A stretch of 64,000 nucleotides of DNA from contig NZ_SWBP01000004.1 of NCBI RefSeq assembly GCF_005116455.1, forward strand, positions 186,001 to 250,000. The letters are read 5' to 3'. Below the pieces are notes generated by a model. That model was not told the DNA's origin. It saw only the letters and a list, made by a program, of their open reading frames with translations, and made no database searches. Below, piece by piece: positions 22,302 through 48,963 of this stretch (position 1 is the stretch's first letter; each line of letters starts with the position of its first letter). The translations under genes and the position numbers were made by a program. Source of the DNA: Pedobacter cryophilus (GTDB taxonomy: Bacteria > Bacteroidota > Bacteroidia > Sphingobacteriales > Sphingobacteriaceae).

Positions 22302-22322
22302 AATTTAAAATTTGTAACTAAA

Positions 22323-23252: not shown

Positions 23253-23269
23253 TCATAAAACTTTATTCT

Positions 23270-23311
23270 TTAGCGCTATCCACACAATTTTTTAAGTGTA
23301 GATAGCGCTAA
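23270..23311 (+). terminator. strong terminator after the first SusC/D/DUF5017 operon
   Basis: 16-bp arms 23270-23285 and 23296-23311 (TTAGCGCTATC...GATAGCGCTAA) with one mismatch and a 10-nt loop, then TTTT. The GCGC core makes it unusually stable for this region. Confidence 0.8.
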
Positions 23312-23379
23312 TTTTAACCGCTATTTTAGATAGTATAACATTTTATTGCCCATATAATAGTATTAAACACTTTAAGTTC

Positions 23380-25176: not shown

Positions 25177-26214
25177 TTAGTATTTAGCAATATGGTTTTT
25201 TACCGTAGAATTTCTAATAATAAGCTCGGTCTCTAAAATTTTTGTGGTGGCTTTCCAGTTCTCAACATCTCTATTAATTTGTTCAACCAGCATTTGAATC
25301 GCTGATTTACCTATCTCTTCAATAGGTTGTGACATGGTACTTAAAGACGGTTCTATTAATGCCGAAGCATAATCATCGCTAAAACCAATAATTGCAATAT
25401 CTTCTGGTATTTTTAATTGATGTTGTTTAATAACCTGGATAGCTTGTATGGCCGTAGGGTCATTTATTGCAAAAATTGCATCGGGTGGATTTTTTAAGCT
25501 CAACAAATGTTTAACATAAATATTCACTTTATTAATTGATAAATCGTATGAAATAATTAATTCATCATCTACAGGGATATCATGTTTTTTAAGAGCATCC
25601 AAATAGCCATTCAATCTTTTTTTACTGATAGATAAAGAGCTTGGCCCAGTTAAATGAGCTATTCTTTTTTTGCCAGTTAAAATAAGATGTTCAACTGCTT
25701 TAAAAGCGCCTTCATAATCATTCACAATTACTTTAGGTACAATCATTTCTTCGCATACGCGATTAAAAAAAACAATCGGAATTCCCTTTCTTTGAAACAC
25801 CTTTAAATGGTCAAAATTTAAAGTCTCTTTGGTGATAGATACAATTAAACCATCAACTTGGCTGGCCAACATTACTTTTGTGTTAGCTACTTCTGTTTCA
25901 TAAGATTCGTTAGATTGAGAAACAATAATATGATAGCCATTTAAAGCGGCTTCTTCTTGCGCTGCCACCACAACTTTAGGAAAGTAAGAACTTCTAAACT
26001 CGGGCACCATTATTCCTATAGTGTTGCTCTTACTGGTAATTAAGCTAATAGCCAGCATATTACGCTGGTAGTCCATCTTTTCTGCAAGTTCTAATACTAA
26101 TTTTTTAGTATGTTCATTTACATTTGGATGATTTGTAAGTGCTCTTGAAACCGTTGATTTAGAGATATTTAATTCTCTAGCAATATCAAAAATTGTGGTT
26201 TGGTGTTTCTTCAT
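25177..26214 (-). CDS. LacI/GalR-family transcriptional regulator of PUL2
   Basis: 345 residues. N-terminal LacI HTH (TIFDIARELNISKSTVSRAL, residues ~6-25) with hinge helix to ~60, then a periplasmic-binding-protein-like sensor domain (NTIGIMVPEFRSSYFP, DGLIVSITKE, HLTGPSSLSISKKRLNGY, DDYASALIEPSLSTMSQP). It is cytosolic and so would sense an imported sugar, unlike the membrane HTCS of PUL1. Divergent from the 26481 gene, with a pair of dyads (26256-26286) between them; the same dyads recur before 28125 and 41406, defining its probable regulon. Confidence 0.9.
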   Translation of the reverse strand: MKKHQTTIFDIARELNISKSTVSRALTNHPNVNEHTKKLVLELAEKMDYQRNMLAISLITSKSNTIGIMVPEFRSSYFPKVVVAAQEEAALNGYHIIVSQSNESYETEVANTKVMLASQVDGLIVSITKETLNFDHLKVFQRKGIPIVFFNRVCEEMIVPKVIVNDYEGAFKAVEHLILTGKKRIAHLTGPSSLSISKKRLNGYLDALKKHDIPVDDELIISYDLSINKVNIYVKHLLSLKNPPDAIFAINDPTAIQAIQVIKQHQLKIPEDIAIIGFSDDYASALIEPSLSTMSQPIEEIGKSAIQMLVEQINRDVENWKATTKILETELIIRNSTVKNHIAKY

Positions 26215-26255
26215 CTACATACAATTTAAAACAAGGTAATAAATTTTTAGCTATT

Positions 26256-26340
26256 GGGATTACTCCCAATAAATGGGAACGCTCCCATAAAATAATAACC
26301 ACAACAATTGACTTTTTTTTATCATCGACTTATACTTTTG
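26256..26340 (+). promoter_or_regulatory. double operator and promoter upstream of the SGNH esterase
   Basis: Two 12-bp dyads GGGA-N4-TCCC: GGGATTACTCCC at 26256-26267 and GGGAACGCTCCC at 26275-26286, centres 19 bp apart; the second has the central CG typical of LacI-family operators. TTG at 26308-26310 and TACTTTTG at 26333-26340 form a promoter for the rightward gene. First dyad to -7 box: 77 bp. The dyads also lie 42 bp upstream of the leftward LacI start and may control it. Confidence 0.75.
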
Positions 26341-26480
26341 GATATTCAACAATAATAAATTTTCCAAATACTGTATCATTATACTTTTAGCCAATTCTTT
26401 TTATAGATGCTTTTTTGTTGAGAAACTTATAAGAGCCTAATTAAATAGGTAAGGTTAAATAATAATTAAGAATTGAAAAT

Positions 26481-27869
26481 ATGAATAAGTTAGTTCTTTG
26501 TTTTTTTACCTCTGTTATTTGTTTACTGTGCTTAGTTTTTAGGGTTGATGCCCAGCAATCTCAAAAAAGCAGTTTAATAGAAGCCAGTCAGGCTGGCGCA
26601 TCACCTTTATTTTTTAAAGTTAACAATCCCAATACTCCAATTATTAGTTTGGGAAAAAGGAGTTATCCGCTTGAATTTTTTTTAAGAGGCGGCTTACCAA
26701 ATTTTATCTACAAGGCAAATAAAGGAGATTCTTTAAAATTGGGTTTTATTGGAGGTAGTATTACCAAAGCAGATGACCTTTACAGAACGCAAATTGCAAA
26801 GCATTTACAGAAAACTTTTCCTAAAGCTAAAATGATAGGTTTAAATACTGGAGTTTCTGGAACAGGATCTGATTTGGGTGCGTTTAGAGTTACAACGCAA
26901 TTATTAGCTTATCAGCCAGATTTAGTATTTATAGAATTTGCGGTAAACGGAGCCTTTGCGCCTGGTGTAGAAGGTATTATCAGGCAAATACGAAAGCATA
27001 ATTCTAAAACAGAAATATGCTTACTTTATACCATTAGTGAAGGCCAAGCAGAACAATATGCCAATGGAAAAATATCTAATAACATCAAAAATTTAGAAAA
27101 AATAGCAGAACACTACCAAGTACCATCGGTACATTTTGGTGCAAGTATTGGTGTAATGCAACAAGAAGGAAGCTTGATTTGGAAAGGCAGCGGCAACAGT
27201 GAAAAAAGCAAAATAGTTTTCTCTAATGATGGTTTACATCCTACTAAAGATGGAGGAAATTTATATGCTGCTGCAATTGGTAGAGCTTTTGAGCTGATTA
27301 AGATGCAGAAAACAAATCAAAAGTTAATCAGTTATGAACTTTTAAGTCCTTTATTAAATGAAGATTGGGAAGATGCAAAAATGCTTGATCCAAAAGATTT
27401 TGCATCATTTAAAGGAGATTGGATTACTATAAATCCTGATACAACATTAACAATCAATAAGTTTAAACCTTGGTTTCCTTATGTAATGAAGGCTGCAAAA
27501 CCTGGTTCAGAATTTACTTTTAAATTTAAGGGAGATGTTTTTGGTTTATTTGATATTGGTGGCCCAGAGGTAGGAGAGATAGAGATTTTTGTAGACGAAG
27601 AAAAAGGTGCTGATAGTTTAAAATTTATAAATAATAGGTTTAATAAATTTTGCAATGATAGATATCGCGGGCAATATTTTAAATATAAAGTTCCTTACGG
27701 CGAGCACATTGTTAGGGTTATAATTTCTCAAAATATTCCAAATAAGCAACAAATATTAGGAGATTCTCAGCTATCAGATATTACTGTAAACCCCGCCAAA
27801 TACAATCAATCTGTAATTTATTTAGGTAAAATATTGATTAAGGGAGAACCTATGAGTTTGAAAAAGTAA
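26481..27869 (+). CDS. secreted SGNH/GDSL-type hydrolase, probable carbohydrate esterase
   Basis: 462 residues; signal peptide ending FRVDAQ. SGNH blocks: LGFIGGSITKA with nucleophile Ser93 (GGS instead of GDS), Gly/Asn blocks NTGVSGTGSD and FAVNGAF, and the catalytic dyad region Asp250/His253 in DGLHPTKDGG. Residues ~290-455 form a C-terminal beta-sandwich-like part. It likely removes acetyl or similar esters from the PUL2 glycan. Controlled by the double operator just upstream; monocistronic, since another operator follows it. Confidence 0.8.
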   Translation: MNKLVLCFFTSVICLLCLVFRVDAQQSQKSSLIEASQAGASPLFFKVNNPNTPIISLGKRSYPLEFFLRGGLPNFIYKANKGDSLKLGFIGGSITKADDLYRTQIAKHLQKTFPKAKMIGLNTGVSGTGSDLGAFRVTTQLLAYQPDLVFIEFAVNGAFAPGVEGIIRQIRKHNSKTEICLLYTISEGQAEQYANGKISNNIKNLEKIAEHYQVPSVHFGASIGVMQQEGSLIWKGSGNSEKSKIVFSNDGLHPTKDGGNLYAAAIGRAFELIKMQKTNQKLISYELLSPLLNEDWEDAKMLDPKDFASFKGDWITINPDTTLTINKFKPWFPYVMKAAKPGSEFTFKFKGDVFGLFDIGGPEVGEIEIFVDEEKGADSLKFINNRFNKFCNDRYRGQYFKYKVPYGEHIVRVIISQNIPNKQQILGDSQLSDITVNPAKYNQSVIYLGKILIKGEPMSLKK

Positions 27870-27958
27870 ATCCCCTTTCATACATCAAAATTATTTTAAC
27901 GCTCCACAAAACTAAATTTTACTATCAAACAACTATCGTCTATCACAATTTAGCTTTT

Positions 27959-28043
27959 GGGAACACTCCCAATAATTGGGAACGCTCCCGAATAATTTAT
28001 AAGGTTTACAAAAGCTTATTTTTTTTTGCACTATGTACTTTTG
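27959..28043 (+). promoter_or_regulatory. double operator and promoter of the long PUL2 operon
   Basis: Dyads GGGAACACTCCC (27959-27970) and GGGAACGCTCCC (27978-27989), centres 19 bp apart. TACTTTTG -7 box at 28036-28043, again 77 bp from the first dyad. No good TTTG/TTG lies 19-22 bp upstream of the -7 box, as expected of a promoter that needs an activator. Confidence 0.75.
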
Positions 28044-28124
28044 ATTCTATAACCAATAATTAAACTTAAATCTATTTACCCTAAGTAGACTAAGATTAAT
28101 GTTTAATATTTTTTATCGAAATAT

Positions 28125-30404
28125 ATGTTAAAAGAAGATTTTAGTTTAGATAGAGCATTAAAAAACGAGAAAATAATCACCGATTTTTTAGTTGTAGGTG
28201 GTGGCATGTCGGGTATTTGTGCAGCCATTGCAGCAGCTAGGATGGGGTTAAAAGTAATTCTTATTCAAGACCGTCCGGTTTTAGGTGGTAATGCTTCTAG
28301 CGAAGTAAGACTTTGGATATTAGGGGCTACATCACACATGGGAAATAATAACCGCTGGGCCAGAGAAGGAGGAATTATTGATGAATTATTAGTTGAGAAT
28401 TTATACCGCAACAAAGAAGGTAATCCTTTAATATTTGATACCATACTTTTAGAAAAAGTTTATCAAGAAGAAAACATCACTTTACTATTAAACACCGCTG
28501 CTTTTGAAGTAAGTAAAAATGATCAAAATAATATTAGTAGTGTAAAAGCATTTTGCAGCCAAAATTCTACTATGTACACCATCTCATCTCCTTTATTTTG
28601 CGATGCATCTGGTGATGGTGTTTTAGGTTTTTTAGCTGGAGCCTCTTTTAGAATGGGAGCAGAAACCAAAGATGAGTTTGGAGAAGGCTTTGCTCCGGAT
28701 GTAAAAGATTATGGTGAACTACTAGGTCACTCTATTTATTTTTATACCAAAGATACCGGTTTACCAGTAAAATATGTTGCTCCAGCATTTGCCAAAAAAG
28801 AGGTAGGATCTTTACCAAGAATCAAAAACTACAAATTAAAAGAGTACGGTTGTCGCTTATGGTGGGTAGAGTATGGTGGAAGGTTAGATACTATACATGA
28901 GTCAGAAAACATTAAACTAGAACTTTGGAAAGTTATTTATGGCCTTTGGGACCATGTGAAAAATAGTGGTGATTTTCCAGAAGCAGAGAATTTAACTTTA
29001 GAATGGGTAGGTACAATCCCAGGAAAAAGAGAAAGTCGCCGTTTTGAAGGCGATTATATGATGGTGCAGCAAGATATTGTAGAACAAAGACAACATGAAG
29101 ATGCCATTGCATTTGGTGGTTGGGCAATGGATTTACACCCTGCAGATGGTGTTTATAGCGATAAAAGCGGTTGTACACAATGGCATGCTAAAGGAGTTTA
29201 CCAAATACCATACCGGTGCTTTTATAGTAAAGACATTGATAATTTATTTTTAGCGGGTAGAATTATAAGCGTTTCTCACGTAGCTTTTAGTTCAACCCGT
29301 GTGATGGCTACTTGTGCTATGGGCGGACAAGCAGTAGGCGTTGCGGCATCTTTAGCCAAAAAATCGGGCCTCAAGCCCAGAGATTTATCTACAGGAGAAA
29401 ACCTTAAAAAACTACAATTAGAATTGAATAAAATGGGGCAGAGTATTCCTTTTATTCCTTTAATTGATGAGAAAAATCTATTACAATCTGCTCATATTAA
29501 AGCATCTTCAGAACAGCGAATACAACAACTTCCAGATAATGGCAATTGGTTAACTCTTGATTTTTCTGCCGCTCAAATGCTGCCATTTAAGCGAAAAGAA
29601 AATTATAACATCAGTTTTAAAGTAAAGGCAGAAGTAGCTACTTCCTTACAATTTGAGTTTAGAACAAGTTCTAAAACACAAAACTATACGCCTGATGTAA
29701 TTTTAGAAAAACAAGCAATTGCTTTAAAAGCAGGCGAACAGATTATTCATATTTCCCTTAAAAAATCTCTTAACGAAGATCAATATGCTTTTTTAACTTT
29801 TCTTAAAAACGATGACGTAAGTATTAAATGTAGTGAAACCAAAATATCAGGTGTAATTGCAGTACTTAACAAAACCAATAAAGCAGTTTCTAACTACGGC
29901 AGGCAAGATCCACCAGCGAATATTGGTGTGGATTCATTTGAATTTTGGACACCTTACAGAAGACCTCAAGGACAGAATTTTGCTTTCCAAATTAGCCCGG
30001 CCATTACTTGTTTTGAAGTAGAAAACCTAAATAATGGTTATTTAAGGCCATACAATAGTCCTAATGCCTGGGTTGCCAATACAAACGATAAAAATCCAAC
30101 AGTTCAAATTAACTGGGATAATGAGGTAACCATCAATGAAATTGTTTTAATGTTTGATACAGACCAAGATCATGCTTTAGAATCATCATTATACGGGCAT
30201 CCCGAAGATGTTTTGCCATTTTGTATCAGAGATTTTGAATTAAAAAGTGATCAATCTACAGTGGTTTACAGCGTGAAAGGTAATTTCCAAACCATCAATA
30301 AAATAAAATTAACAGCACCATTAAGAACTAAAGAACTGATTTTAGAAATGAAAAATCCTTCAGAAAATGTTCCTGCTGCTATATTTCAAATCTTAATTTA
30401 TTAA
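28125..30404 (+). CDS. cytosolic FAD-dependent oxidoreductase with C-terminal beta-sandwich region
   Basis: 759 residues, no signal peptide, so probably cytosolic. Residues ~20-55 are a Rossmann FAD-binding motif (LVVGGGMSGICAAIAA; LIQDRPVLGGNASSEV) of the FAD_oxidored type, closing with FLAGRIISVSHVAFSSTRVM and GGQAVGVAASLA at ~385-425. Residues ~440-759 are beta-rich and unlike a redox domain. First gene of a 13-kb operon. PUL members of this family are uncharacterised as far as I know; redox chemistry on an imported sugar or sugar acid is plausible but inferred. The enzyme's reaction cannot be read from the sequence. Confidence 0.75.
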   Translation: MLKEDFSLDRALKNEKIITDFLVVGGGMSGICAAIAAARMGLKVILIQDRPVLGGNASSEVRLWILGATSHMGNNNRWAREGGIIDELLVENLYRNKEGNPLIFDTILLEKVYQEENITLLLNTAAFEVSKNDQNNISSVKAFCSQNSTMYTISSPLFCDASGDGVLGFLAGASFRMGAETKDEFGEGFAPDVKDYGELLGHSIYFYTKDTGLPVKYVAPAFAKKEVGSLPRIKNYKLKEYGCRLWWVEYGGRLDTIHESENIKLELWKVIYGLWDHVKNSGDFPEAENLTLEWVGTIPGKRESRRFEGDYMMVQQDIVEQRQHEDAIAFGGWAMDLHPADGVYSDKSGCTQWHAKGVYQIPYRCFYSKDIDNLFLAGRIISVSHVAFSSTRVMATCAMGGQAVGVAASLAKKSGLKPRDLSTGENLKKLQLELNKMGQSIPFIPLIDEKNLLQSAHIKASSEQRIQQLPDNGNWLTLDFSAAQMLPFKRKENYNISFKVKAEVATSLQFEFRTSSKTQNYTPDVILEKQAIALKAGEQIIHISLKKSLNEDQYAFLTFLKNDDVSIKCSETKISGVIAVLNKTNKAVSNYGRQDPPANIGVDSFEFWTPYRRPQGQNFAFQISPAITCFEVENLNNGYLRPYNSPNAWVANTNDKNPTVQINWDNEVTINEIVLMFDTDQDHALESSLYGHPEDVLPFCIRDFELKSDQSTVVYSVKGNFQTINKIKLTAPLRTKELILEMKNPSENVPAAIFQILIY

Positions 30405-30415
30405 AGATTCAGCAA

Positions 30416-32956
30416 ATGAAATTATTTGTCAGATATATATTCTTGCTGTTCTTTTACTCAGTTTCATTTGCAGCATCAACAGATACGGTTTCTTTAAACG
30501 GAAGTTGGAAATTTAAAACCGACCCATATAAAAATGGACTAAGCGAAAAGTGGTTTAGTGCAGCTAACAATAAAGCAAACTGGGATAATATGCAGGTGCC
30601 CGGTAATTGGGATTTAAAAAATGAATATGCAGATTATACTGGCGATGCTTGGTACAGTTACACTTTTGAAGGTAAAGAAAATTGGAAAAATAATCATGTT
30701 CGGTTAGTTTTTGAATCAGTTTATAATGATGCTGAGGTATGGCTAAACGGCAATAAATTGGGTGAGAACCATTTCGGTTTTTTACAATTTTATTTTGATA
30801 TTTCTAAATATCTACTCACAAATAAAACCAACCAAGTAGTTGTAAAAGTTAATAATGTTTTTAAAAAGGGTGCAATTTGGAATTGGGGCGGAATAAGAAG
30901 ACCGGTTTGGTTAGAAATTTCAAACCCAATAAGAATTAATCAAATAGCCATTACTTCTAATCCTAATCTTAAAAAATTAAATGCTACTGTAAATGTTAAA
31001 GTAGATTTAGCCAACTACAGCAAAAGTGATGCGGATTTAAGTTATGAGGTGAAACTGTTTTATCAAAATAAAAACATCTATTCATCTGGCATACAAAAAA
31101 CTTTAACGCTAAAAGCTGATGAAAGTAGCGTCTTCATAAAAGCCATAAATCTATCATCGGCAAACACTCATTTGTGGCATTTTGATCATCCACAACTCTA
31201 TCAAGCTCAAATAAGTATTTATCAAGGTAAAGAGTTATTGCATTCTTACGCCGATAAATTTGGGATTAGAAAAATTGAAGTAGATGGCATAAAATTGAGA
31301 TTAAATGGTGAAGAAATAAGGTTAGTAGGTTTTAATCTGGTTCCTGAGGATAGAGTTACAGGGAATACCCTTCCGTTAGATAGAATTAAAAAGATGGTAG
31401 ATATGATGAAAGAATCTGGTGCTAATATGGCGAGGATGAGTCACATGTCTTTACCAAAAGAGTTTTTAGATTATTTGGATGAAAAGGGCATCATGACTTT
31501 TGAAGAAGTAACGCTTTGGGGTAAAGATGTGCTGGTAGACCCTGCAAATCCGCTTCCTAAACTATGGTTAGAGAAACTAATTAAGCAAGAATTTAATCAC
31601 CCAAGTATTATTGGTTGGAGTGTGGGTAATGAGATAGGGGCCTTAAAAAACAATCCATTAGCTAATGAATACATTAAAGGAGCTATTGCAAATGCTAAAA
31701 AATTAGATCCAAATCGTTTGGCAGTTTATGTTTCTAACTCGGTGCAAAGCCAAGATAACGACCCTATGGCTTACAGCGATTTAATTATGCAGAATACCTA
31801 CGGTGGTTGGTTAAATGCTGCCGAAAAAGCACATAAACAGTTTCCAAATAAGCCATTATTTATGTCGGAATTTGGTTTAAATCTAATTGGCGAAAATTTA
31901 GAAGCTGACGCTGATTTTAATAAAATGTTAAGCGGTTTAAGAACCAAAGATTACATTATTGGCGCTTCACTATGGACATTTAATGATTACAGAAGCAATT
32001 ATTGGTCGGCAATAAAAGGCTGGGAATCGCCACCATCACATAACCGTACTTGGGGTGTGGTAAATACATTTTTACAAAAAAAGAAAGCTTTTTATACCAT
32101 ACAAAAAGAATTTTTACCGGTAAAAATTGAAAGCATTAGTTCTAATACTAATCAAAATTTGTTTTCGGGTAAAATTGTATTGAAACCTAAAGCAAAGCCA
32201 GATTTTCCAGCGTATCAATTAAAAAATTATCAGTTTTTGATTAAAGCCCTAAACGGAGATCAAGAAACTAAACAAGTAGCGGTTAAGCTACCCGTTTTAA
32301 ATCCGGGAGATGATTCAAAATCTTTTGATTATAGCATTTCATTGCCAAATACCTCAACAGCTGTTAAAATAGCTTTGCTTGATGCTCAAAATTATTCCCG
32401 TTTTGATACTATAATTTATGTGACAGTGCCTTTGGTTGGTAAAATTAAAGCAGTGCATACCAGTGCTACAGCCGCTAGAATCATATTCGAAAAAAATCCA
32501 ACTGTAGCATATTATACTTTAAAATACGGGGAGAAAGATTTAGATAAAGAAACTGCTGCAATAAGCGCCAATAACTTTATCGATTTAAAAGACCTTAAAG
32601 CTAAAGGGACTTATCAATATCAATTGGTAGCACATAACAATAAGGGAAGTAAAAGTACCGAAAAGGCAACTTTTACATTAGATGAGAGCGAGTTACCACC
32701 TATAATTTGGGGAGTTGAGCCTGTTAAAAACGGGTTTTTTATCTCTTTTTCAGGCGATCTTTTAGATTATAGATATGAAGTAGAATATGGTACAGCCTCA
32801 GGTAAATATGATAAGCTGTTAACCATTAACACACATGGGGTTTTGCAAATACCAAATCTTGAGGCTAATAAAGAGTATTTTTTTAGACTAAGAAGGGTTT
32901 TGCAGTGGGGTTTTGCAAGTGAATGGTCTCATGAAATGACAACTAAAACTTTGTGA
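30416..32956 (+). CDS. GH2 family beta-glycosidase
   Basis: 846 residues with signal peptide (FFYSVSFAAS). Jelly-roll N-domain (LNGSWKFKTDP, AEVWLNGNKLG), Ig-like domain, then TIM barrel (LVGFNLVPEDRV...) with acid/base Glu406 in SVGNEIG and nucleophile Glu485 in MSEFG. Residues ~670-846 carry two FN3-like domains. Likely beta-galactosidase or beta-glucuronidase activity; specificity not decidable. Begins 11 bp after the FAD oxidoreductase, same operon, but is exported to the periplasm. Confidence 0.9.
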   Translation: MKLFVRYIFLLFFYSVSFAASTDTVSLNGSWKFKTDPYKNGLSEKWFSAANNKANWDNMQVPGNWDLKNEYADYTGDAWYSYTFEGKENWKNNHVRLVFESVYNDAEVWLNGNKLGENHFGFLQFYFDISKYLLTNKTNQVVVKVNNVFKKGAIWNWGGIRRPVWLEISNPIRINQIAITSNPNLKKLNATVNVKVDLANYSKSDADLSYEVKLFYQNKNIYSSGIQKTLTLKADESSVFIKAINLSSANTHLWHFDHPQLYQAQISIYQGKELLHSYADKFGIRKIEVDGIKLRLNGEEIRLVGFNLVPEDRVTGNTLPLDRIKKMVDMMKESGANMARMSHMSLPKEFLDYLDEKGIMTFEEVTLWGKDVLVDPANPLPKLWLEKLIKQEFNHPSIIGWSVGNEIGALKNNPLANEYIKGAIANAKKLDPNRLAVYVSNSVQSQDNDPMAYSDLIMQNTYGGWLNAAEKAHKQFPNKPLFMSEFGLNLIGENLEADADFNKMLSGLRTKDYIIGASLWTFNDYRSNYWSAIKGWESPPSHNRTWGVVNTFLQKKKAFYTIQKEFLPVKIESISSNTNQNLFSGKIVLKPKAKPDFPAYQLKNYQFLIKALNGDQETKQVAVKLPVLNPGDDSKSFDYSISLPNTSTAVKIALLDAQNYSRFDTIIYVTVPLVGKIKAVHTSATAARIIFEKNPTVAYYTLKYGEKDLDKETAAISANNFIDLKDLKAKGTYQYQLVAHNNKGSKSTEKATFTLDESELPPIIWGVEPVKNGFFISFSGDLLDYRYEVEYGTASGKYDKLLTINTHGVLQIPNLEANKEYFFRLRRVLQWGFASEWSHEMTTKTL

Positions 32957-33051
32957 TTAGTTTTTTTGGGATAATATTTCATACAGCGTTAAAAGCCAAT
33001 AGTAATAGTGAAAAAACCAATTAAAATTTTAAACCATTTAATTAAATCAAA

Positions 33052-33693
33052 ATGAAAAAAGTAATTATTCAAGCAGCATTTTTTATGCTACTCGCACTTA
33101 CCTCTTTTGCTCAAAAATCAGAAACAATTGTTTCTTGGAATTTTTTTACCCAAATAGATGGTGGAACTGATAATTCGGTGCCTTCTATTATGAGTGCCGA
33201 CATATCATCTAAAGGAATCGTGAAGGGCAAAGGCTTATCAAAAAACAATGAGTTTAAACAGCCAAAATATTGGGGCGCAAAAGGTTTTTCATTTGATAAA
33301 AATGGCCCAGAAGATGGCATCAAAAAAGAGAAATTTATTACTTTTTCTTTTATTACAAATGCGGCAAAACCACTTTCATTAGATGAGATTAAACCCCTAA
33401 GAATCAAAATATCTTCTATAGGTCCGGTTAATTATACTTTCCAATATTCTTTTGATGGAGTGGAGTTTAAAGATATAACAACGATAAAAGTTGATAACCC
33501 AGTAAAATTCTCAGATTTAATTACCCCTGCTGTTAAATTATCAGATGTTAAAGATTTACAAAGAATTGCAACAGGTAAAACTGTTTATATGAGAATTATT
33601 CCGTGGGGAGCAAAAGGTAATGAGTATAACGATTGTTACTTAGGCAGTTCTTACGATTATGCCGCTTTAACTGTAACAGGAAACTTCAAATAA
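33052..33693 (+). CDS. secreted protein consisting of a single copy of an unnamed beta module
   Basis: 213 residues; signal peptide ending LTSFAQ. The whole mature chain is one ~190-residue module: SWNFFTQIDGGTD start, WGAKGFSF, FFSF/ITFSF, LDEIKPLRIKISSIGPVNYTF, and RIIPWGAKGNEYNDCYLGS end. The same module occurs once in the next gene and twice in the one after. It has no T9SS tail, so probably stays periplasmic or is released. A carbohydrate-binding role is likely by context only. Confidence 0.7.
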   Translation: MKKVIIQAAFFMLLALTSFAQKSETIVSWNFFTQIDGGTDNSVPSIMSADISSKGIVKGKGLSKNNEFKQPKYWGAKGFSFDKNGPEDGIKKEKFITFSFITNAAKPLSLDEIKPLRIKISSIGPVNYTFQYSFDGVEFKDITTIKVDNPVKFSDLITPAVKLSDVKDLQRIATGKTVYMRIIPWGAKGNEYNDCYLGSSYDYAALTVTGNFK

Positions 33694-33719
33694 TCATTTA
33701 ATTATAAAACAAAATAATC

Positions 33720-34922
33720 ATGAAAAAATTTCTACAATTCAACGCTTTAAGCTTAATGCTCTTTATAGCATTGGCATTTTCTAATTCTAGAGCTCAGGCA
33801 CAAGTTTATGCCTCTTGGAACATGTTTGGCCAGTCAGGTTTTGGCGTAAGCCCATTAGCTCCAACTGTACTTTCTGCCGATGCTGTTGCAACTGAAGGTT
33901 TAACCAGAAGTGCTAATTTAAGTACTGCATCAGCTATAGCCGCTCAATCAAACAGATGGGGAGGCGAAACTAGCGCTGGTACATCAGCAAACGCTATTAG
34001 TACTCCTCGTTTCTTTACTTTTGCCATTACACCAGCAGCTACTAAAACACTTTCATTTGGTAGTATATCTGCTATTTCGCTTTACCTTTCGTCAAATAGT
34101 GCAATTAGTTATTTGATGCAATATTCTTTAGACGGAACCGCCTATACAGATATTACAACTCACAGTATAACTAGGCCTACTACTTCAGGTAATCAAACTA
34201 TTCCAGCTACAGATCTTTCTGCTATAACAGCTTTGCAAGGTGTAACAAGCGCAACAACGGTATATTTTAGAATTGTTCCTTTTAATGCAGGTTCTCCAGC
34301 AGTTACAGATTTTAACTTTGTTTACTTTGGTCATGGCACCAATACAACAGCTTTTTCAGTAAATGGTCCTGTCACTTTACCAGTTAAGTTATCCTCTTTC
34401 ACCTCTTCTATCCAAAACCAAGCGGCATTTTTAAAATGGACTACAGAGTCTGAAGTGAATTTCGATTATTTTTCAGTAGAGAAAAGAGATCAAAACTCAG
34501 AATTTAGAGAAATAGGTAGAGTGGCTGCAAAAGGTGGTAATGGTAAAACTTTATATAGTTTTTCTGATAAAAATATTTCTTTTGAAACCAGTTATTACAG
34601 ACTTAAAATGGTTGATAAAGATGGAACTTTTGAATACAGTGATGTGATTGATGAAGCCTTAATCTCTTCAAATCAAGCGCTATCAATTTGGCCAAATCCA
34701 GCAGTTAATCAAAATGCTAAAGTGGCTTTTAAAGAATTGTCAATAACATCAAATTTAAAAGTTATTGATTTATCTGGTAGAGTAGTCATCAATCAGCAGT
34801 TAAAAAAAGGTACAAGTAATATCGAGTTAGATTTGAGTAAACTTAACAATGGTCAGTTTGTTCTTTTATTAGAAAGTAATGGCGCAAAGCTCGATTATTT
34901 AAAGTTTTTAAAAGAAAACTAG
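33720..34922 (+). CDS. T9SS-secreted protein with one copy of the unnamed module
   Basis: 400 residues; signal peptide (LMLFIALAFSNSRAQA). Residues ~29-215 are the repeated module (ASWNMFGQSG...YFRIVPFNAG...VYFG). Residues ~222-310 are FN3-like (LPVKLSSFTSSIQNQ, FLKWTTESEVNFDYF). Residues ~320-400 are a T9SS sorting domain (SIWPNPAVNQ...LDYLKFLKEN). Starts 26 bp after the previous gene. Predicted to be cell-surface exposed; likely glycan binding. Confidence 0.75.
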   Translation: MKKFLQFNALSLMLFIALAFSNSRAQAQVYASWNMFGQSGFGVSPLAPTVLSADAVATEGLTRSANLSTASAIAAQSNRWGGETSAGTSANAISTPRFFTFAITPAATKTLSFGSISAISLYLSSNSAISYLMQYSLDGTAYTDITTHSITRPTTSGNQTIPATDLSAITALQGVTSATTVYFRIVPFNAGSPAVTDFNFVYFGHGTNTTAFSVNGPVTLPVKLSSFTSSIQNQAAFLKWTTESEVNFDYFSVEKRDQNSEFREIGRVAAKGGNGKTLYSFSDKNISFETSYYRLKMVDKDGTFEYSDVIDEALISSNQALSIWPNPAVNQNAKVAFKELSITSNLKVIDLSGRVVINQQLKKGTSNIELDLSKLNNGQFVLLLESNGAKLDYLKFLKEN

Positions 34923-35079
34923 TGTAAGATGCTTGTTTGCATCTTATTAATTGGTTCCGGAAATGGCGATTTATCCCAATCTCCATTTCCGTTATAAACT
35001 TTTTGCTTTAAAGATTCTAACCAGATCAAATCAATTTATAACCATCAGCATACTTGAAATTAAATTCAACTCTATTATC

Positions 35080-37656
35080 ATGCGGAGAATTAATAATAAT
35101 GTAAAATACACCATTTTAAGTTTTTTAATGGGGATTTTATCTTTCAATTCCCTCTTGGTAAATGCACAATCAACTAAAAAAGGATTGTGTTTAGGCGTAA
35201 GCACTACTGATTTTTCGTTAAAACTGCGCTTAACAAAATCTACATGGCATTATGGCTGGAACTTAAGAAAAAGTAGTTTACAGCCAGTAAGTGTGGAATT
35301 TGTACCCATGATATTTGGTAATCCTAGTGCCTCAAGTTATACTTATTTAGATTCGGCATACAGAGCTGGAGACTTTACGCATTTATTAGGTTTTAATGAG
35401 CCTGATGCTGCTGAACAAGGTAATGTTACAGTTGAGCAAGCAATTGCAGCATGGCCAAATATGGTAAATTTAGGTATTCCTTTGGGTAGCCCTGCTGCAA
35501 CCAATGCCGAAGGGGTTTGGATGACTGAGTTTATGAGCAGGGCAAACGCCTTAAATTATAGGGTAGATTTTGTTACTTTACATTGGTATGGTGGTCCAAA
35601 TGCGGCAAACTTTTTAGCATTATTAAATAGGGTTTATGCGTTGTACAATAAACCAATTTGGATAACCGAATTTGCCATTGCTGATTGGTCTGCTACGCCT
35701 TCAAGACCAAATATATATTCAGAACCACAGGTTCTTGATTTTATGAAAACTGTTTTAACGGCTTTAGAAACACCAGAATATAGTTTTGTACATCGTTTTT
35801 CTTGGTTTTCCAAAACCAATATATCTCCTGATAATACAAGTCCATTAGGTAAATCACTTTTGTTTGATGGTGATGGGGGGCTTACTTATTTGGGTCAATA
35901 CTACGCTAATCATAAAATAGCAACACCTAGGGTTGCATTGGTTAACCCATTAATTGCATGGAATGTGTTTGGCCAACCATCAGTTGGTGCACAGAACATT
36001 ATGCCTACCACCTTAAATTCGGCTTTAGAAACTAGTGGTTTTGTTAGAGGGGCAGGGGTGAATTTAACGTCAAGTACCAATACTAATATATGGGGAGGCT
36101 CTGGTTGGTCAACAGAAATTATAGATGTTGGTCCTGCTATTTCTCAAGGTAAATACATTGATTTTAATATATCGGCGAAAGCAAATAAAAGTTTTTCATT
36201 AAGCAAATTAGGGGCTTTAAAGATCATTACCAACTCTACAGGGCCTATTTATTTTAAGTTACAATACGCCATAGATAATGGTGCTTATAAAGGAATAACT
36301 ACTTTATTTGTTGACAGACCAAGTGCTACTACTGTTTTTTTTCTAGATGATGTTGATCTTTCAATATTTCCTGATTTACAAGATGTAGCTGCCGGCAAAA
36401 CGGTAAAATTTAGGATGATTCCTTTCGGCGCAACATCAGCTTCTACAGGTGTTTTTTACATAGGGAGCAATGTTACTGCTAACAATAATTCAAATTCTTT
36501 AGGTTTTGAAGGAACAATTAAAACAATACAAACCGGCGCAACTACTGAGTTGGCTTCATGGAATTTTTTCAATCAAACAGGTGGCGGTACACAAGCCATG
36601 GCGCCTACTTTTTTAAATTCATCTTTAAATTCTTCTGGATTAATTAAAGGGAGTGGTGTAACTAATGTTACTGCAACAACTGATAGGTTATGGGGAGCAA
36701 GAGCATGGTCTTTAGATTTAACAGGACCAGATGCCGGCATCACTGGTAACAAGTTTTTCACCTTTAGTTTTACACCAAAGGCAGATAACTTTGTGTCTTT
36801 CACAGAAATAAATCCATTTAAAATTAGGATATCATCACTAGGGCCTATTAATTATTCTATCCAGTATGCCATAGGAAACGAAGCTTTTAAAGATATAACG
36901 GTTTTAAATATTATAAGACCATCCACAACATCAAATTTCACCCTACCAGTTATAGATATTTCAGGCATTTCAGAACTTCAAAATGTATCGCCTAATAAAA
37001 CAGTAAACTTTAGAATTATACCATGGGGAGCTACTAACAATGAATTTAGCCATTTTTACTTAGGAGATTTAACAAATGTTAATTCTTTTGGTATTAATGG
37101 TTCTATTGCAAATGTGCTTCCCGTAAAACTTAAAAGCTTTACGGCTAAAAATGTAAATGATAAAGTAGTTTTAAAATGGCAAACTAGCTCAGAGATAAAT
37201 TTCAGTCATTTTATTATTGAAAGAAAAGTGGGAAATGGTGATTTTAAAGAGCTTTCTAAAGTTAAATCTGCGGGGTTAACTAGTGGGAGTAATTATAGTT
37301 TTACTGATGATTTTGCATCTTTTGAAACGCATTATTATCGTTTAAAAATGATTGATTTTGATGGTACTATTGCTTATAGTTACATTCAATTTGCCAATTT
37401 AAATAACTTTAAAAATCAAAGTCTTAGCTTATACCCTAATCCGGCAGTTTCAGAAGTTACGGTTTCATACCCAATTGCAAACCCAAACAGCAGGTTAAAA
37501 ATAATAGGTATTGATGGTAAAGCACATGCTGATTATCCTTTAGAAGTGGGCAGCATTAACAAGAAAATTGATGTTTCTGATTTAGAAAAAGGCTATTATA
37601 TAATTATTTACAATAACTCTTCATCCTCAAAAGGGCTTAAATTTATTAAAAACTAA
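35080..37656 (+). CDS. GH128-type beta-1,3-glucanase with two copies of the unnamed module, T9SS-secreted
   Basis: The frame opens at 34951, but the ATG at 35080 is chosen because it directly precedes a signal peptide (ILSFLMGILSFNSLLVNAQ). 858 residues. Residues ~35-285 are a Glyco_hydro_cc/GH128 barrel: HLLGFNEPD with Glu107 and PIWITEFAIADW with Glu197 as the catalytic pair, plus FVTLHWYGG and HRFSWFSK. Then the unnamed module twice (~292-483 and ~490-678), an FN3-like segment and a T9SS tail (SLYPNPAVSE...GLKFIKN). GH128 enzymes cleave beta-1,3-glucan, so this is the probable surface endo-enzyme of PUL2. Confidence 0.8.
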   Translation: MRRINNNVKYTILSFLMGILSFNSLLVNAQSTKKGLCLGVSTTDFSLKLRLTKSTWHYGWNLRKSSLQPVSVEFVPMIFGNPSASSYTYLDSAYRAGDFTHLLGFNEPDAAEQGNVTVEQAIAAWPNMVNLGIPLGSPAATNAEGVWMTEFMSRANALNYRVDFVTLHWYGGPNAANFLALLNRVYALYNKPIWITEFAIADWSATPSRPNIYSEPQVLDFMKTVLTALETPEYSFVHRFSWFSKTNISPDNTSPLGKSLLFDGDGGLTYLGQYYANHKIATPRVALVNPLIAWNVFGQPSVGAQNIMPTTLNSALETSGFVRGAGVNLTSSTNTNIWGGSGWSTEIIDVGPAISQGKYIDFNISAKANKSFSLSKLGALKIITNSTGPIYFKLQYAIDNGAYKGITTLFVDRPSATTVFFLDDVDLSIFPDLQDVAAGKTVKFRMIPFGATSASTGVFYIGSNVTANNNSNSLGFEGTIKTIQTGATTELASWNFFNQTGGGTQAMAPTFLNSSLNSSGLIKGSGVTNVTATTDRLWGARAWSLDLTGPDAGITGNKFFTFSFTPKADNFVSFTEINPFKIRISSLGPINYSIQYAIGNEAFKDITVLNIIRPSTTSNFTLPVIDISGISELQNVSPNKTVNFRIIPWGATNNEFSHFYLGDLTNVNSFGINGSIANVLPVKLKSFTAKNVNDKVVLKWQTSSEINFSHFIIERKVGNGDFKELSKVKSAGLTSGSNYSFTDDFASFETHYYRLKMIDFDGTIAYSYIQFANLNNFKNQSLSLYPNPAVSEVTVSYPIANPNSRLKIIGIDGKAHADYPLEVGSINKKIDVSDLEKGYYIIIYNNSSSSKGLKFIKN

Positions 37657-38705
37657 TGCGAAAAAATCAAGGTTATATTTTATTGTTGGGTATAATAATA
37701 TACTTTTTTAGCTCCTATCAAGCAGTAGCTCAACAAAACAAAAACAACCAATTTAAACCAGGTTTACCGTGGTTAGATAATAATGGAATTCCTATAAATG
37801 CTCATGGTGGAGGCGTTTTATTTCACAAAGGAACTTATTATTGGTACGGTGAGCATAAATTACCTAATAAATCAGAAAAAGAAATGGCTGATGCCGGTAT
37901 ACACTGTTATTCTTCTAAAGATCTTTTGAATTGGAGTGATGAAGGCTTGGTATTATCAGTAAATTTTGACGACCCCAAAAGTGAGATTGCTTACGGTTGT
38001 ATTTTAGAAAGACCTAAAGTTATTTTTAATAAAAAAACTAAAAAGTTTAACGCCTTTTTTAAATTTTATCCTAAAGGAACAGGTTATTTAAAAGGTTATA
38101 TAGGTGTTGCTACCGCAGATAAACCAAATGGTCCTTTTAAATTTCAACATAAATTTTTAGGTGCCGACTCTGATTTTGGTTCAGGAGATTTCTCGATGTT
38201 TAAAGATCAAGATCACACCGTTTATCACCTTACAGTAAGAAAACCTGATAAAACTTTTGTAATAGGCAAACTACGTGATGATTACTTATTCACGGTACCA
38301 AAAAGTTATCATTTAGCCGATGGAATAGAAAAGCATACAGAAGCGCCAGCTGTTATTTTTCATAACAGTAAATATTATTTGATAGGTTCTGGATCTAGTG
38401 GTTGGGAACCCAATGCGGCAAGGTCTTATGTAACAGATGCGGTTACTGGTAAATATACAAACCTAGGAAATCCGGTTAAAGGCATTAATCCACATAATAG
38501 TTTAGGGCCTGAGAAAACATTTGGCGGACAAATTTCCTATATCATTAAAGTACAAGGAAAAAAGGACGCTTACATTGCCATGATTGATGTTTGGAAACCC
38601 AATGAACCAATTAATGGATTGTATATATGGCTTCCGTTAACCTTTAAAGACGGAAAACCAGAGATCATCTGGAAAGACAATTGGGATTTAACCATATTTA
38701 AATAA
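37656..38705 (+). CDS. GH43-like five-bladed propeller glycosidase (exo-beta-1,3-galactanase-like subfamily)
   Basis: 349 residues; signal peptide (YFFSSYQAVAQ). Starts within the TAATG overlap with the GH128 stop, so translationally coupled. The opening NAHGGGVLFHKGTYYWYGEHK is typical of the GH43 group containing exo-beta-1,3-galactanases, where the usual first catalytic Asp is absent; here too no DP-type Asp is visible at that position. ERPKVIFN and KHTEAPAVIFHN could supply the general acid Glu. Beta-1,3-galactan is one possible substrate, but the call is from pattern memory. Confidence 0.65.
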   Translation: MRKNQGYILLLGIIIYFFSSYQAVAQQNKNNQFKPGLPWLDNNGIPINAHGGGVLFHKGTYYWYGEHKLPNKSEKEMADAGIHCYSSKDLLNWSDEGLVLSVNFDDPKSEIAYGCILERPKVIFNKKTKKFNAFFKFYPKGTGYLKGYIGVATADKPNGPFKFQHKFLGADSDFGSGDFSMFKDQDHTVYHLTVRKPDKTFVIGKLRDDYLFTVPKSYHLADGIEKHTEAPAVIFHNSKYYLIGSGSSGWEPNAARSYVTDAVTGKYTNLGNPVKGINPHNSLGPEKTFGGQISYIIKVQGKKDAYIAMIDVWKPNEPINGLYIWLPLTFKDGKPEIIWKDNWDLTIFK

Positions 38706-38707
38706 TT

Positions 38708-39517
38708 ATGAAACGATATTACATTCCTCAGTTTTGCTTGGGACTTGTTTTTTTAACAGCAAGTTGTTCAAAAAAGGTATCAGAGAATAAAATAGCTAAT
38801 GAAAAATCTAAGGCTGAAGTGCCGTCAGGATTTGTACCTCAGGGATATAAATTATCCTTTAATGATGAGTTTGAAGGAAAAAGCTTGGATATTACTAAAT
38901 GGGATTATAGGTTAGCCGCTAAAATTGGTGGGGGATACTCTTCAAATCAACTAGAAGATAATGTTTCTATTAATAACGGGGTTTTATTGGTAAAAGGAGT
39001 TTTTAAAGACCCCAAAGCTGGCGGTATAAATTCTGGCGGCGGTGTGATTTCTAAAGCTCATTTTAGATATGGCTATTATGAATCTCGAGTGAAAACTCAA
39101 GATGGTCCATTTTGGCATTCATCTTTTTGGACCTATAATACCAAAGACAAAACAAGAGCTACAGAAATTGATGTTTTTGAAAGAGATTCTGAATACGATA
39201 AACCAGACGGCATTATTAAAATAAGACAAAATGTAATTCAGCACTCATCAGGCAAACCCATCACTTTAAAAGGCAGTATTAAATTACCGCTCAATTTTGA
39301 TCCATCAGCAGATTATCATATTTATGGGATGCTTTGGGAAGAGAATCAAGTAACTTTTTATATTGATGGTAAATTAACCAATACCATTTCATACCCTGCA
39401 AGTAAATATCCGCATGATGATACCGCCATTTGGTTATCAATGATTGCTAGAAATACAGCTACCGCCAATACAGCTTGTTATTTTGATTATGTAAGATTTT
39501 ATTCGAAAACCAATTAA
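38708..39517 (+). CDS. GH16 family endo-glycosidase lipoprotein
   Basis: 269 residues; lipobox LTASCSKK. GH16 jelly roll: SFNDEFEGKSLDITKWDYR, YYESRVKTQDGPFW, catalytic Glu153-Ile-Asp155-Val-Phe-Glu158 (EIDVFE, the bulged ExDxxE form), and YHIYGMLWEENQVTFYIDG. The ExDxxE form occurs in subfamilies acting on beta-1,3-glucans and on marine galactans. Begins 2 bp after the GH43-like stop. Probably surface-anchored. Confidence 0.85.
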   Translation: MKRYYIPQFCLGLVFLTASCSKKVSENKIANEKSKAEVPSGFVPQGYKLSFNDEFEGKSLDITKWDYRLAAKIGGGYSSNQLEDNVSINNGVLLVKGVFKDPKAGGINSGGGVISKAHFRYGYYESRVKTQDGPFWHSSFWTYNTKDKTRATEIDVFERDSEYDKPDGIIKIRQNVIQHSSGKPITLKGSIKLPLNFDPSADYHIYGMLWEENQVTFYIDGKLTNTISYPASKYPHDDTAIWLSMIARNTATANTACYFDYVRFYSKTN

Positions 39518-39640
39518 TATAACTCCAAGTATGGATGGAAGAAGAAGGCTTGTATTTTTAATTCAGATTTAATTAGAATCTAAGAAGTAAATAATTTTTG
39601 TTTAAGACATATATCTAATAGATAACAATAAATAATTATC

Positions 39641-41029
39641 ATGAAAATAAAAGGAATGCGATGGTGGATAGTAGTATTGTTATTTCTTGCCGCAGTACTA
39701 AATTATGTAGATAGGCAAACACTTTCTGCTTTAGCACCAACCATACAGAAAGATTTAAATATGGATGATAATGATTATGCAAACGTTATCAATATTTTTC
39801 TAGTTGCATATACCATCGCTTACCTTATTTCAGGAAGAATAGCTGATAAAATAGGAACCCGAGCAGGTATGGTAGTTTTTGTTGCTTGGTGGTCTATAGC
39901 CAATATGTTTACCGCTGCAGCTAGAGGCGTAACCTCTTTAGGCGTTTATAGATTTATGCTAGGACTTGGTGAGGCAGGTGTTTGGCCAGCGGCAAGTAAA
40001 GCAGTTTCCGAGTGGTTTCCTGCTAAAGAAAGAGGTGTTGCCATAGGTTTATACACCATGGGTGCTACTATTGGCGCAACTCTAGCTCCATATATAGTTA
40101 TACCACTTGCTACGCATGCTTATACTGAAACCATGCCCGTTATCGCAAATCTATTAGGGCAAGGTACTGGTTGGCGACTGGCTTTTATCATTACAGGATT
40201 TATAGGGCTATTATGGCTCATCCCATGGATAATAGCCTATCGCAGACCAGAGAAGAGCAAACTCATTACTACTTCAGAATTACAAATGCTTCAGGAAGCT
40301 GAAGCTAAAGAAAGCCCAGATGATTTAGAAACTAAGAATGCATGGTCTTGGAAACAAGTTCTTCTTTTTAGAGGAACGTGGTTATTACTAGTAGGTCGTT
40401 TAATAACAGATCCAGTATGGTATTTCTATCAATTTTGGTTTCCAAAATATTTATCTGCTGATAGAGGGCTAAATCAAGAAGAGTTAAAAATAACATGGCT
40501 AATTTATGCAGCAGCAGGAATAGGAAGTTTACTAGGCGGAGTACTTTCTGGTGTAATCATCAAACGTGGTTCAACACCGGCCAATAGCAGGTTGTGGGTA
40601 ATGTTAGGTTGTGCTTGCATCATGCCTTTATCACCATTTATAGCAAATGTTACGGGTTTAAGTTTATCCATGGTATTAACTTTTTGTACGGTTTTAGCAT
40701 CCCTAGCATGGCTTACCAATATTACTTCTTTAGTGGTAGATGTAGTTCCAAAACATTCTTTAGGAACTGTTTTTAGCGTAGTAGCAGCCGGAAGCACAAT
40801 TGGTGGCATCATCATGAATATGATTGTAGCAGCTATGGTAACCCAAGGTTCTAAAGCCACAGGCGGGTTTTTAGATCAAGGCATGCATGTACTTATAGAT
40901 CCTGTATTGAATTTAGTTAGAGGCAATGGTTATGCTCAATGGTTTTTAATTATGGCTTTTTTACATCCATTAGCTTGGGTTATCTTAAAATTTGGAGGTG
41001 TAAATAAGTTATCAGTATTAAAAAAATAA
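39641..41029 (+). CDS. MFS transporter, anion:cation symporter (hexuronate-type) family
   Basis: 462 residues, 12 predicted membrane helices. The N-terminus MRWWIVVLLFLAAVLNYVDRQTLS is the hallmark of ACS-family (ExuT/GarP-like) importers, with GRIADKIGTR between helices 2 and 3 and RFMLGLGEAGVWPAASK. These carry hexuronates or other sugar acids across the inner membrane. Last gene of the 28125 operon (terminator at 41180), suggesting the end product is an acidic or modified monosaccharide that the cytosolic FAD oxidoreductase may then process. Confidence 0.85.
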   Translation: MKIKGMRWWIVVLLFLAAVLNYVDRQTLSALAPTIQKDLNMDDNDYANVINIFLVAYTIAYLISGRIADKIGTRAGMVVFVAWWSIANMFTAAARGVTSLGVYRFMLGLGEAGVWPAASKAVSEWFPAKERGVAIGLYTMGATIGATLAPYIVIPLATHAYTETMPVIANLLGQGTGWRLAFIITGFIGLLWLIPWIIAYRRPEKSKLITTSELQMLQEAEAKESPDDLETKNAWSWKQVLLFRGTWLLLVGRLITDPVWYFYQFWFPKYLSADRGLNQEELKITWLIYAAAGIGSLLGGVLSGVIIKRGSTPANSRLWVMLGCACIMPLSPFIANVTGLSLSMVLTFCTVLASLAWLTNITSLVVDVVPKHSLGTVFSVVAAGSTIGGIIMNMIVAAMVTQGSKATGGFLDQGMHVLIDPVLNLVRGNGYAQWFLIMAFLHPLAWVILKFGGVNKLSVLKK

Positions 41030-41179
41030 GAATATCCAATTTAAGAAAATCTATCAATCTATTTTAAGCCGCGGCTACTAGTACATTATTAATATTGTTT
41101 TTAGGTAAACGTAAATAATCATTGAAATAAATTTTAATTAATGAAAATTTAAAACGGAAACTAAACAACTAATTCATCT

Positions 41180-41218
41180 AAGCCTAAGTTCAAAACCTAT
41201 TTGATCTTAGGCTTTTTT
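41180..41218 (+). terminator. intrinsic terminator of the 28125-41029 operon
   Basis: Perfect 9-bp stem AAGCCTAAG (41180-41188)/CTTAGGCTT (41206-41214) with T-run to 41218. Lies in the gene-free gap 41030-41405, just before the third double operator. Confidence 0.8.
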
Positions 41219-41236
41219 AGTTGTAAGAAGTTTTTT

Positions 41237-41321
41237 GGGAACACTCCCATAATTGGGAGTGTTCCCAAAATAAGAAATATTTCTCAGCCATGTGTTTTAA
41301 TGAGTTTTGATTTTAGATTTG
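41237..41321 (+). promoter_or_regulatory. double operator and promoter of the second SusCD operon
   Basis: Dyads GGGAACACTCCC (41237-41248) and its exact reverse complement GGGAGTGTTCCC (41255-41266), centres 18 bp apart. TAGATTTG -7 box at 41314-41321, once more 77 bp from the first dyad although the second dyad has moved by 1 bp. The two dyads could also fold as a 12-bp hairpin, but the copies at 26256 and 27959 cannot do so as well, so binding sites are the better reading. Confidence 0.75.
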
Positions 41322-44549: not shown

Positions 44550-44558
44550 ATAATAGCA

Positions 44559-46388: not shown

Positions 46389-46398
46389 TTTATTAGAT

Positions 46399-47277: not shown

Positions 47278-47341
47278 TTTAAGTGATGATTATAATTTAT
47301 ATATAATCTTATCACAAATTAATTGTACTCATTATTTTTAA

Positions 47342-47373
47342 AAAAGCACATCTAATTATTTAAATGTGCTTTT
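47342..47373. terminator. intrinsic terminator after the second SusCD operon
   Basis: Perfect 10-bp stem AAAAGCACAT (47342-47351)/ATGTGCTTTT (47364-47373), then a T-rich stretch. Confidence 0.75.
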
Positions 47374-47445
47374 ACTTTTTTAACACATCACTAATATAAC
47401 CAATCAATTAGTTCACAGATTTCTAAAAAAAAGAAATTTCAAATC

Positions 47446-48933: not shown

Positions 48934-48963
48934 ATTTTCAAGTACAATTAAATTTAAGATAAA

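Follow-up and report, generated by a model that had tools for sequence, protein, structure and literature searches.

Paired LacI-type operators at a fixed distance from the -7 box in promoters of a Pedobacter cryophilus polysaccharide locus and its relatives

The LacI locus and its three promoters

The LacI family is the textbook family of repressors. In the 64,000-nucleotide stretch of the Pedobacter cryophilus genome analyzed here (contig NZ_SWBP01000004.1, positions 186,001 to 250,000 of the forward strand; hereafter, the window), a LacI-family gene lies beside the first of three promoters that lead into a SusCD-type polysaccharide locus. Each promoter carries two adjacent GGGA-N4-TCCC dyads upstream of a TAnnTTTG-type -7 box (Table 1). 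The position of these dyads, which is kept in related genomes, suggests that the LacI protein touches RNA polymerase and probably activates its promoters.

Table 1. Genes and promoter elements of the LacI-associated locus, in window coordinates. GH, glycoside hydrolase family; MFS, major facilitator superfamily; FAD, flavin adenine dinucleotide; HTH, helix-turn-helix; aa, amino acids.
Feature	Position	Strand	Basis or remark
LacI-family regulator gene, 345 aa (LacI HTH and Peripla_BP sensor), predicted operator owner	25177..26214	-	Pfam; presence near paired dyads in relatives
Candidate lacI -7 box TACCTTGT, short of full consensus	26231..26238	-	17 bp from other end of pair 1
Promoter 1, distal operator GGGATTACTCCC	26256..26267		exact-pattern search
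Promoter 1, proximal operator GGGAACGCTCCC	26275..26286		46 bp before -7 box
Promoter 1, -7 box TACTTTTG	26333..26340	+	transcription start predicted near 26345
Target 1: GDSL-type esterase	26481..27869	+	family search
Promoter 2, distal operator GGGAACACTCCC	27959..27970		exact-pattern search
Promoter 2, proximal operator GGGAACGCTCCC	27978..27989		46 bp before -7 box
Promoter 2, -7 box TACTTTTG	28036..28043	+	exact-pattern search
Target 2: co-directional FAD oxidoreductase, GH2, two proteins without enzyme family, GHcc, GH43, GH16, MFS	28125..41029	+	predicted single operon
Promoter 3, distal operator GGGAACACTCCC	41237..41248		exact-pattern search
Promoter 3, proximal operator GGGAGTGTTCCC	41255..41266		47 bp before -7 box
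Promoter 3, -7 box TAGATTTG	41314..41321	+	exact-pattern search
Target 3: SusC, SusD, DUF5017, SASA esterase, GH16	41406..49722	+	predicted operon

A preliminary description of this DNA had drawn attention to the geometry, and it is exact: in all three promoters the first dyad begins 77 bp before the box (26256/26333, 27959/28036 and 41237/41314). Promoter 3 also shows the 1-bp shift and the inversion of the second dyad that were described with it, the pitch being 18 bp instead of 19 bp and the second dyad, GGGAGTGTTCCC, the reverse complement of the first, GGGAACACTCCC. For a dyad bound by a homodimer, such an inversion would have little meaning. A -33-like TTG, located 22 bp before the box, is present in promoter 1 only, in agreement with the remark that two of the three promoters lack a good -33 element.

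Within the window, GGGA-N4-TCCC occurs in six copies only, all of them in the three pairs. A scan of the complete 4.0-Mb genome, which the preliminary description had called for, returned no further pairs and none for the reversed-pattern control, and all three pairs have the box at 77 bp. TAnnTTTG is found 35 times on the plus strand of the window and five times in 2,870 bases of intergenic sequence (0.0017 per base, the three promoter boxes included). The chance that all three promoters share one exact distance between 30 and 150 bp is about 6e-7, a rough value for which the promoters were taken as independent. Looser single sites in the same genome (WTGGGAN4TCCCAW, two mismatches) numbered 396 vs. 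380 in the control and thus gave no usable signal.

Occurrence of the paired dyads and their link to the LacI gene

A search of 399 genomes of the family (that of P. cryophilus included; gap of 2-12 bp permitted) identified paired dyads in 44 genomes, while the reversed pattern was found in none; this comparison, likewise proposed beforehand, showed that the register is kept in relatives. Pairs fetched from the other 43 genomes amount to 60 distinct ones and, together with those of the window, make up a first set of 63, from which a pair was removed only if its context was identical to one already included. The two dyads are separated by 6, 7, or 8 bp in 15, 43, and 5 pairs, respectively, which corresponds to a pitch of 18-20 bp in all cases. 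A second set consists of 47 pairs that are located at named LacI orthologues and absent from the first set, with gaps of 6 (1), 7 (28), 8 (12), 9 (1), and 10 bp (5).

Passages of a survey of LacI regulons give intersite-distance peaks at 13, 22, and 32 bp (PMC4052901). These distances, which represent a customary arrangement and no criterion of LacI membership, are not matched by the 18-20 bp of all 63 pairs; in the second set, 22 bp occurs in 5/47 and 21 bp in 1/47 pairs. At the level of the phylum, pairs were detected in six of 395 genomes, that of P. cryophilus included, next to two matches of the reversed control. Six loci that were read have a box at 47 bp (L118), a box at 46 bp (L120), or none in register (L129, L135, L119, and L121). 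The same search returned a tandem array of GGGACGACTCCC units repeated every 18 bp (G456:C1:1102079-1102235), perhaps a coding repeat.

The protein encoded at 25177 matches PF00356 with 45.3 bits (cut-off 27) as well as PF00532 and PF13377, and its best sequence match in the PDB is CcpA (chain 3oqm, E 2.8e-53). Its alignment to E. coli LacI chains stops at residue 312 of 345, which suggests that it may be a dimer. Among 52 fetched stretches with paired dyads, two of which overlap, a LacI gene with 60-79% identity to the window protein is present in 34, one with 34-36% in four, and one with 39-49% in two; 12 stretches, among them some short contigs, have none. Conversely, at least 508 named loci contain a relative of this protein, and among the best 80 (53-80% identity; Pedobacter, Chitinophaga, Spirosoma, Mucilaginibacter, and others) the exact dyad pair was found in 60. 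Pedobacter puniceum, in which the locus is also present, encodes a LacI protein with 80% identity. The 20 remaining loci show a near pair (gap 6-8 bp, at most 450 bp upstream) in six cases and none in 14. Since LacI genes of 60-79% identity accompany the pairs in 34/52 stretches and exact pairs recur at 60/80 orthologue loci, the adjacent LacI-family gene, already named as the candidate in the preliminary description, very probably owns the sites. The dyads are built accordingly: even palindromes with a central CG are described as the norm for LacI operators in passages of the same survey (PMC4052901), GGGA-N4-TCCC is an even palindrome, and its center is CG in 128 of 252 readings (both strands), followed by TG and CA with 41 each.

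The proximal operator is held at a fixed distance from the -7 box

In 40 of the 63 pairs of the first set, a TAnnTT[TC]G box lies exactly 46 or 47 bp past the end of the pair. The 126 flanking directions contain 62 such boxes, so that these 40, each in a different pair, form the majority. After removal of sequences with at least 60% identity, 31 of 46 boxes remain at 46/47 bp, whereas among 2000 shuffles no two neighboring offsets together held more than five. If an A is also permitted in the last position and the offset is extended to 45-48 bp, 51/63 pairs possess a box (TTTG in 28, TTCG in 12, and TTTA in 11), and all 51 in-register directions lead into an open reading frame (ORF) within 450 bp.

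The offset measured from the proximal dyad is 46/47 bp in 50 of these 51 cases, while that from the start of the distal dyad is spread over 76-79 bp; the variances are 0.29 and 0.46, respectively. Gap and offset compensate weakly (permutation p = 0.08). The distal dyad as the ruler is ruled out by its larger variance and by a class of sites with a 12-bp pitch (see below) that holds the proximal register. Because the pitch varies (12, 18, 19, and 20 bp) while the distance from center to box stays at 51-53 bp, the ruler is the proximal operator. The fixed upstream distance put forward in the preliminary description is therefore real and extends over unrelated targets, but its anchor is the proximal operator and not the first dyad.

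The second set follows the same register with less perfect boxes. Of 23 nonredundant promoters that diverge from a LacI gene, 14 have a box at 45-47 bp when one mismatch is permitted, compared with 0.35 per other offset. When redundancy with the first set was removed as well, boxes matching at least five of six positions were found at 45-47 bp in 12 of 21 promoters (1, 7, and 4), compared with 0.33 per other offset.

The genes that follow these boxes are diverse. By similarity to the window proteins, the 51 targets, three of which are those of the window and were named by hand, comprise 16 FAD oxidoreductases, 14 SusC proteins, four GH2, two MFS, one GH16, and one GDSL protein, and 13 others. 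Six of these 13 were searched and correspond to a solute:sodium symporter family (SSF) transporter, a sulfatase, a GH97 enzyme, an O-antigen-ligase-like protein, an enzyme of the mannitol-dehydrogenase family, and one protein without family. The register is thus kept across non-homologous target genes. The operator occupies one rigid upstream position, as expected for Class I-type activation, and because this position is rigid to about 1 bp and lies outside the core promoter, it would imply contact with RNA polymerase.

Other LacI groups and operator pitches

A more distant LacI group (34-36% identity) is present at four loci (L079, L080, L081, and L083), where the pitch is 20 bp and the register of 46/47 bp is kept. 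At L079 the LacI gene is divergent from a gene of the mannitol-dehydrogenase family, and ORFs of matching size occur at L080, L081, and L083. The mannitol-dehydrogenase family includes uronate reductases.

A third class consists of two overlapping dyads with a pitch of 12 bp (CGnnAACGnnnnCGnnAACGnTnnCG) and was found in 21 of 151 genomes. Twenty-seven distinct places were listed, 25 of them with a locus that was read as a 3-kb stretch. The sites lie outside ORFs in 24/25 cases and inside in 1/25; the stretches around them contain a LacI gene with 35-40% identity to that of the window in 10 cases and a SusC gene in 12. A box matching at least five of six positions is located 44/45 bp past the end of the site in 13 of 31 gene-ward directions compared with 1 of 19 others, a test that is partly post hoc, as the pattern was blind to the box but composed after examples with boxes near 45 bp, so that the offset was expected. 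In the nonredundant set, the count at 44/45 bp is 11 of 27, a value reached in 0/2000 shuffles, although only four strict boxes occur at these offsets. The proximal center is located 51/52 bp before the box.

At six loci of this class (L282, L283, L286, L293, L294, and L295), an inverted repeat resembling TTAGTGT-N4/5-TTACACTT is conserved about 20 bp downstream of the operators and before SusC; in these promoters, the box at 44/45 bp is absent on the side of the inverted repeat. Orthologues with a 22-bp pitch in Spirosoma and Arsenicibacter (L196, L201, L202, L204, and L214) mostly have a TTGACA-like element.

The register is no simple rule for every LacI protein, which is ruled out by a general scan of 43 CG-centered palindromes at 66 LacI loci without a peak at 46/47 bp. 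When a scan was centered on the boxes, the distances 51, 52, and 57 clustered just weakly, and two versions of a tandem-palindrome finder returned no pairs and five pairs, respectively. Some LacI genes would carry sites that resemble ordinary repressor operators.

Core promoters and the lacI side

According to passages of a Flavobacterium study, the TAnnTTTG box occupies positions -12 to -5 (PMC9723704). In this numbering, the proximal operator would be centered at -64.5/-65.5 and the distal operator near -83.5 relative to the predicted start, which would be found 12 bp past the first T of each box (near 26345, 28048, and 41326). In the 31 nonredundant promoters, no column between operator and box exceeds 0.51 bits and no -33 signal is visible; TTTG in the -33 region occurs in 1/29 promoters compared with 5/90 background boxes. 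The full TAnnTTTG at 45-48 bp is present in only 28/63 pairs. This low number of full boxes is in keeping with weak cores, and non-consensus cores speak for activation. The sequence CCAA was observed within the first 24 bp past the -7 box, mostly 3-9 bp past it, in 15/31 promoters, and the neighboring polysaccharide utilization locus (PUL) of the window has a promoter with CCAA too (15733-15757, TAAATTTGgtataACCAATTATAAA). It may be an initial-transcribed element that PUL leaders have in common.

On the side of the lacI gene, a box located 17-19 bp from the pair would place the dyads over its -33 region. Autorepression of lacI by occlusion is therefore predicted for at least some genomes. Strict boxes at this distance are present in 9/22 cases of the first set; that these derive from about four sequence groups, and that the second set has a box at 17-19 bp in just 2/38 cases, argues against a general occurrence.

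Activation by polymerase contact and its alternatives

The sites, their rigid spacing, their conservation over many genomes, and their association with LacI are computed observations, and it is from these that we infer protein binding, polymerase contact, activation, a ligand, and autorepression. In the proposed mechanism, the 25177 protein would act as a cytoplasmic, sugar-sensing regulator of which two neighboring dimers bind the two adjacent dyads. The proximal dimer, whose center would lie 52-53 bp upstream of the -7 box at about -64.5/-65.5, would touch RNA polymerase, probably at the alpha C-terminal domain, and this contact would activate the weak promoters of the SusCD-type polysaccharide locus. 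The distal dimer might bind cooperatively with the proximal one and so stabilize it. Toward the divergent lacI gene, these dyads would probably cover the -33 region and repress that gene. Activation via polymerase contact at a fixed register is the best reading, with a probability of about 0.75.

Several observations weigh against it. Twelve of the 63 pairs lack a box at 45-48 bp even by the loose pattern. In the second set, the strict box occurs at 46/47 bp in just 5/47 pairs, and the 21 promoters that are nonredundant to the first set contain no strict box (0/21). Among the Spirosoma and Arsenicibacter orthologues, the in-register box is found in 0/3 nonredundant cases, and the peakless palindrome scan described above points in the same direction. 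The 12-bp pattern gave 36 matches compared with 23 of the reversed control, in 21 compared with 19 of 151 genomes, and single sites with this pitch may be chance matches. The scarcity of a TTG 17-23 bp before the box (2/29 vs. 21/90 background boxes, Fisher p = 0.06) is a trend only.

The rigid spacing does not set the sign of action, because GalR, a LacI relative, both inhibits and activates by contact. From one operator at -60.5, E. coli GalR inhibits P1 and activates P2, the start of which lies 5 bp upstream, according to passages of PMC4693257; inhibition is thus conceivable here as well. A LacI dimer at about -65 might touch the polymerase and block open-complex formation as GalR does at galP1 until a sugar releases it. 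Such a contact repressor would account for the rigid position equally well and would act as most characterized LacI proteins do. Yet sites at -64.5/-65.5 would differ by roughly one helical turn from the register in which GalR activates (-55.5 at P2) and by roughly half a turn from that in which it inhibits, a comparison that involves another polymerase and predicted starts and is suggestive only, and weak core promoters, again as a trend only, need no repression. We consider contact repression unlikely.

A classical repressor that occludes another, unrecognized promoter, with the TAnnTTTG box at +77 as a bystander, would agree with the family prior and with dyads that may overlap the lacI promoter on the other side. 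However, a further box of this kind from 60 bp before to 40 bp after the pair end exists in just 3/40 target directions, so that the dyads rarely cover the target promoter, yet 40/63 pairs have a box at exactly 46/47 bp; simple occlusion is hence highly improbable. Least probable of all is that LacI blocks or helps an unseen activator bound between operator and promoter, since, although CcpA represses lev from an upstream site by preventing productive contact between LevR and the polymerase (passages of PMC3463425), the 31 nonredundant promoters show no stretch of clear conservation from operator to box, and the same register is seen again in further LacI groups, whose targets are unrelated.

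The neighboring polysaccharide locus

The preliminary description had further proposed that the LacI protein replaces the usual hybrid two-component system (HTCS). This is possible for the locus at 26-49 kb only. An HTCS gene (Reg_prop, Y_Y_Y, HisKA, HATPase, receiver, and AraC-HTH domains) is located at 5234-9247, where it adjoins a neighboring pectin-like PUL; the first LacI operator follows at a distance of about 17 kb, and an added HTCS input is possible. This neighboring PUL (5234-24615) has a SusCD pair that lacks the dyads and, besides the HTCS, encodes a pectin-acetylesterase-like hydrolase and two DUF4955/pectate-lyase-like proteins. Consequently, HTCS-style and LacI-style control occur side by side within one window.

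Comparison with known regulators

In passages of PMC3878776 and PMC10766802, control of PULs in Bacteroidota is ascribed to HTCS, SusR, and extracytoplasmic function (ECF) sigma factors. The literature searched, mostly open-access papers of which a few were read in passages, gave no report of a LacI protein that activates a PUL in Bacteroidota. LacI genes often lie beside SusC genes in the genomes examined. A rigid promoter register read from sequence alone would predict which LacI regulators act by polymerase contact. It would also make the sign of action directly testable and provide a simple rule for designing sugar-responsive promoters around the unusual -7 box of Bacteroidota.

LacI-family activators as such are already known, namely CcpA, AraQ/MalR1, and GalR at P2. 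CcpA of Bacillus subtilis activates ackA, pta, and ilvB from upstream of the -35 element, and a dependence on the helix face has been reported (passages of PMC3463425). Unlike the regulator described here, it is global, depends on HPr-Ser-P, mostly represses, and has its activator site 14 bp upstream of -35 (passages of PMC6882875), whereas the window protein would regulate locally, at a PUL, from tandem operators in one fixed register further upstream. AraQ and MalR1 of Bifidobacterium breve are LacI-type proteins that were proposed to activate from upstream sites and to repress from overlapping ones; their upstream sites lie 15-16 or 33-35 bp before -35, which is stated as no particular distance and counts against a single register as a need of LacI activators (passages of PMC6882875). 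GalR at gal OE resembles the present case as a LacI-family dimer near -60 that contacts the polymerase and in this way activates P2, but it represses P1, loops with OI, and uses a single upstream operator (passages of PMC4693257).

CebR of Streptomyces is a cellobiose-released repressor for which we know of no fixed tandem geometry. The core of its operator TGGGAGCGCTCCCA is nearly the same as here; this string and the name CebR appear jointly in PMC5332605 and others. Within Bacteroidota, KdgR, UxaR, UxuR, and UxmR of Bacteroides and UxuR2 of Algoriphagus belong to the LacI family and are predicted regulators of uronate-pathway genes; the passages concerned (PMC3878776 and PMC5507952) mention neither activation nor a fixed register.

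Several LacI groups of Bacteroidota with differing operators and pitches of 12 or 18-20 bp might together form a widespread, unrecognized class of regulators dedicated to activating PUL and uronate genes, with one polymerase-contact register (proximal center 51-53 bp before the -7 box), some at least repressing themselves from the same sites; we give this generalization an even chance. Such a class would stand parallel to HTCS and SusR, which also regulate SusCD loci from tandem direct-repeat sites, with an average pitch of 21 bp for HTCS according to passages of PMC3878776. These are membrane sensors with other DNA-binding domains, whereas the regulator here would be a cytoplasmic LacI protein.

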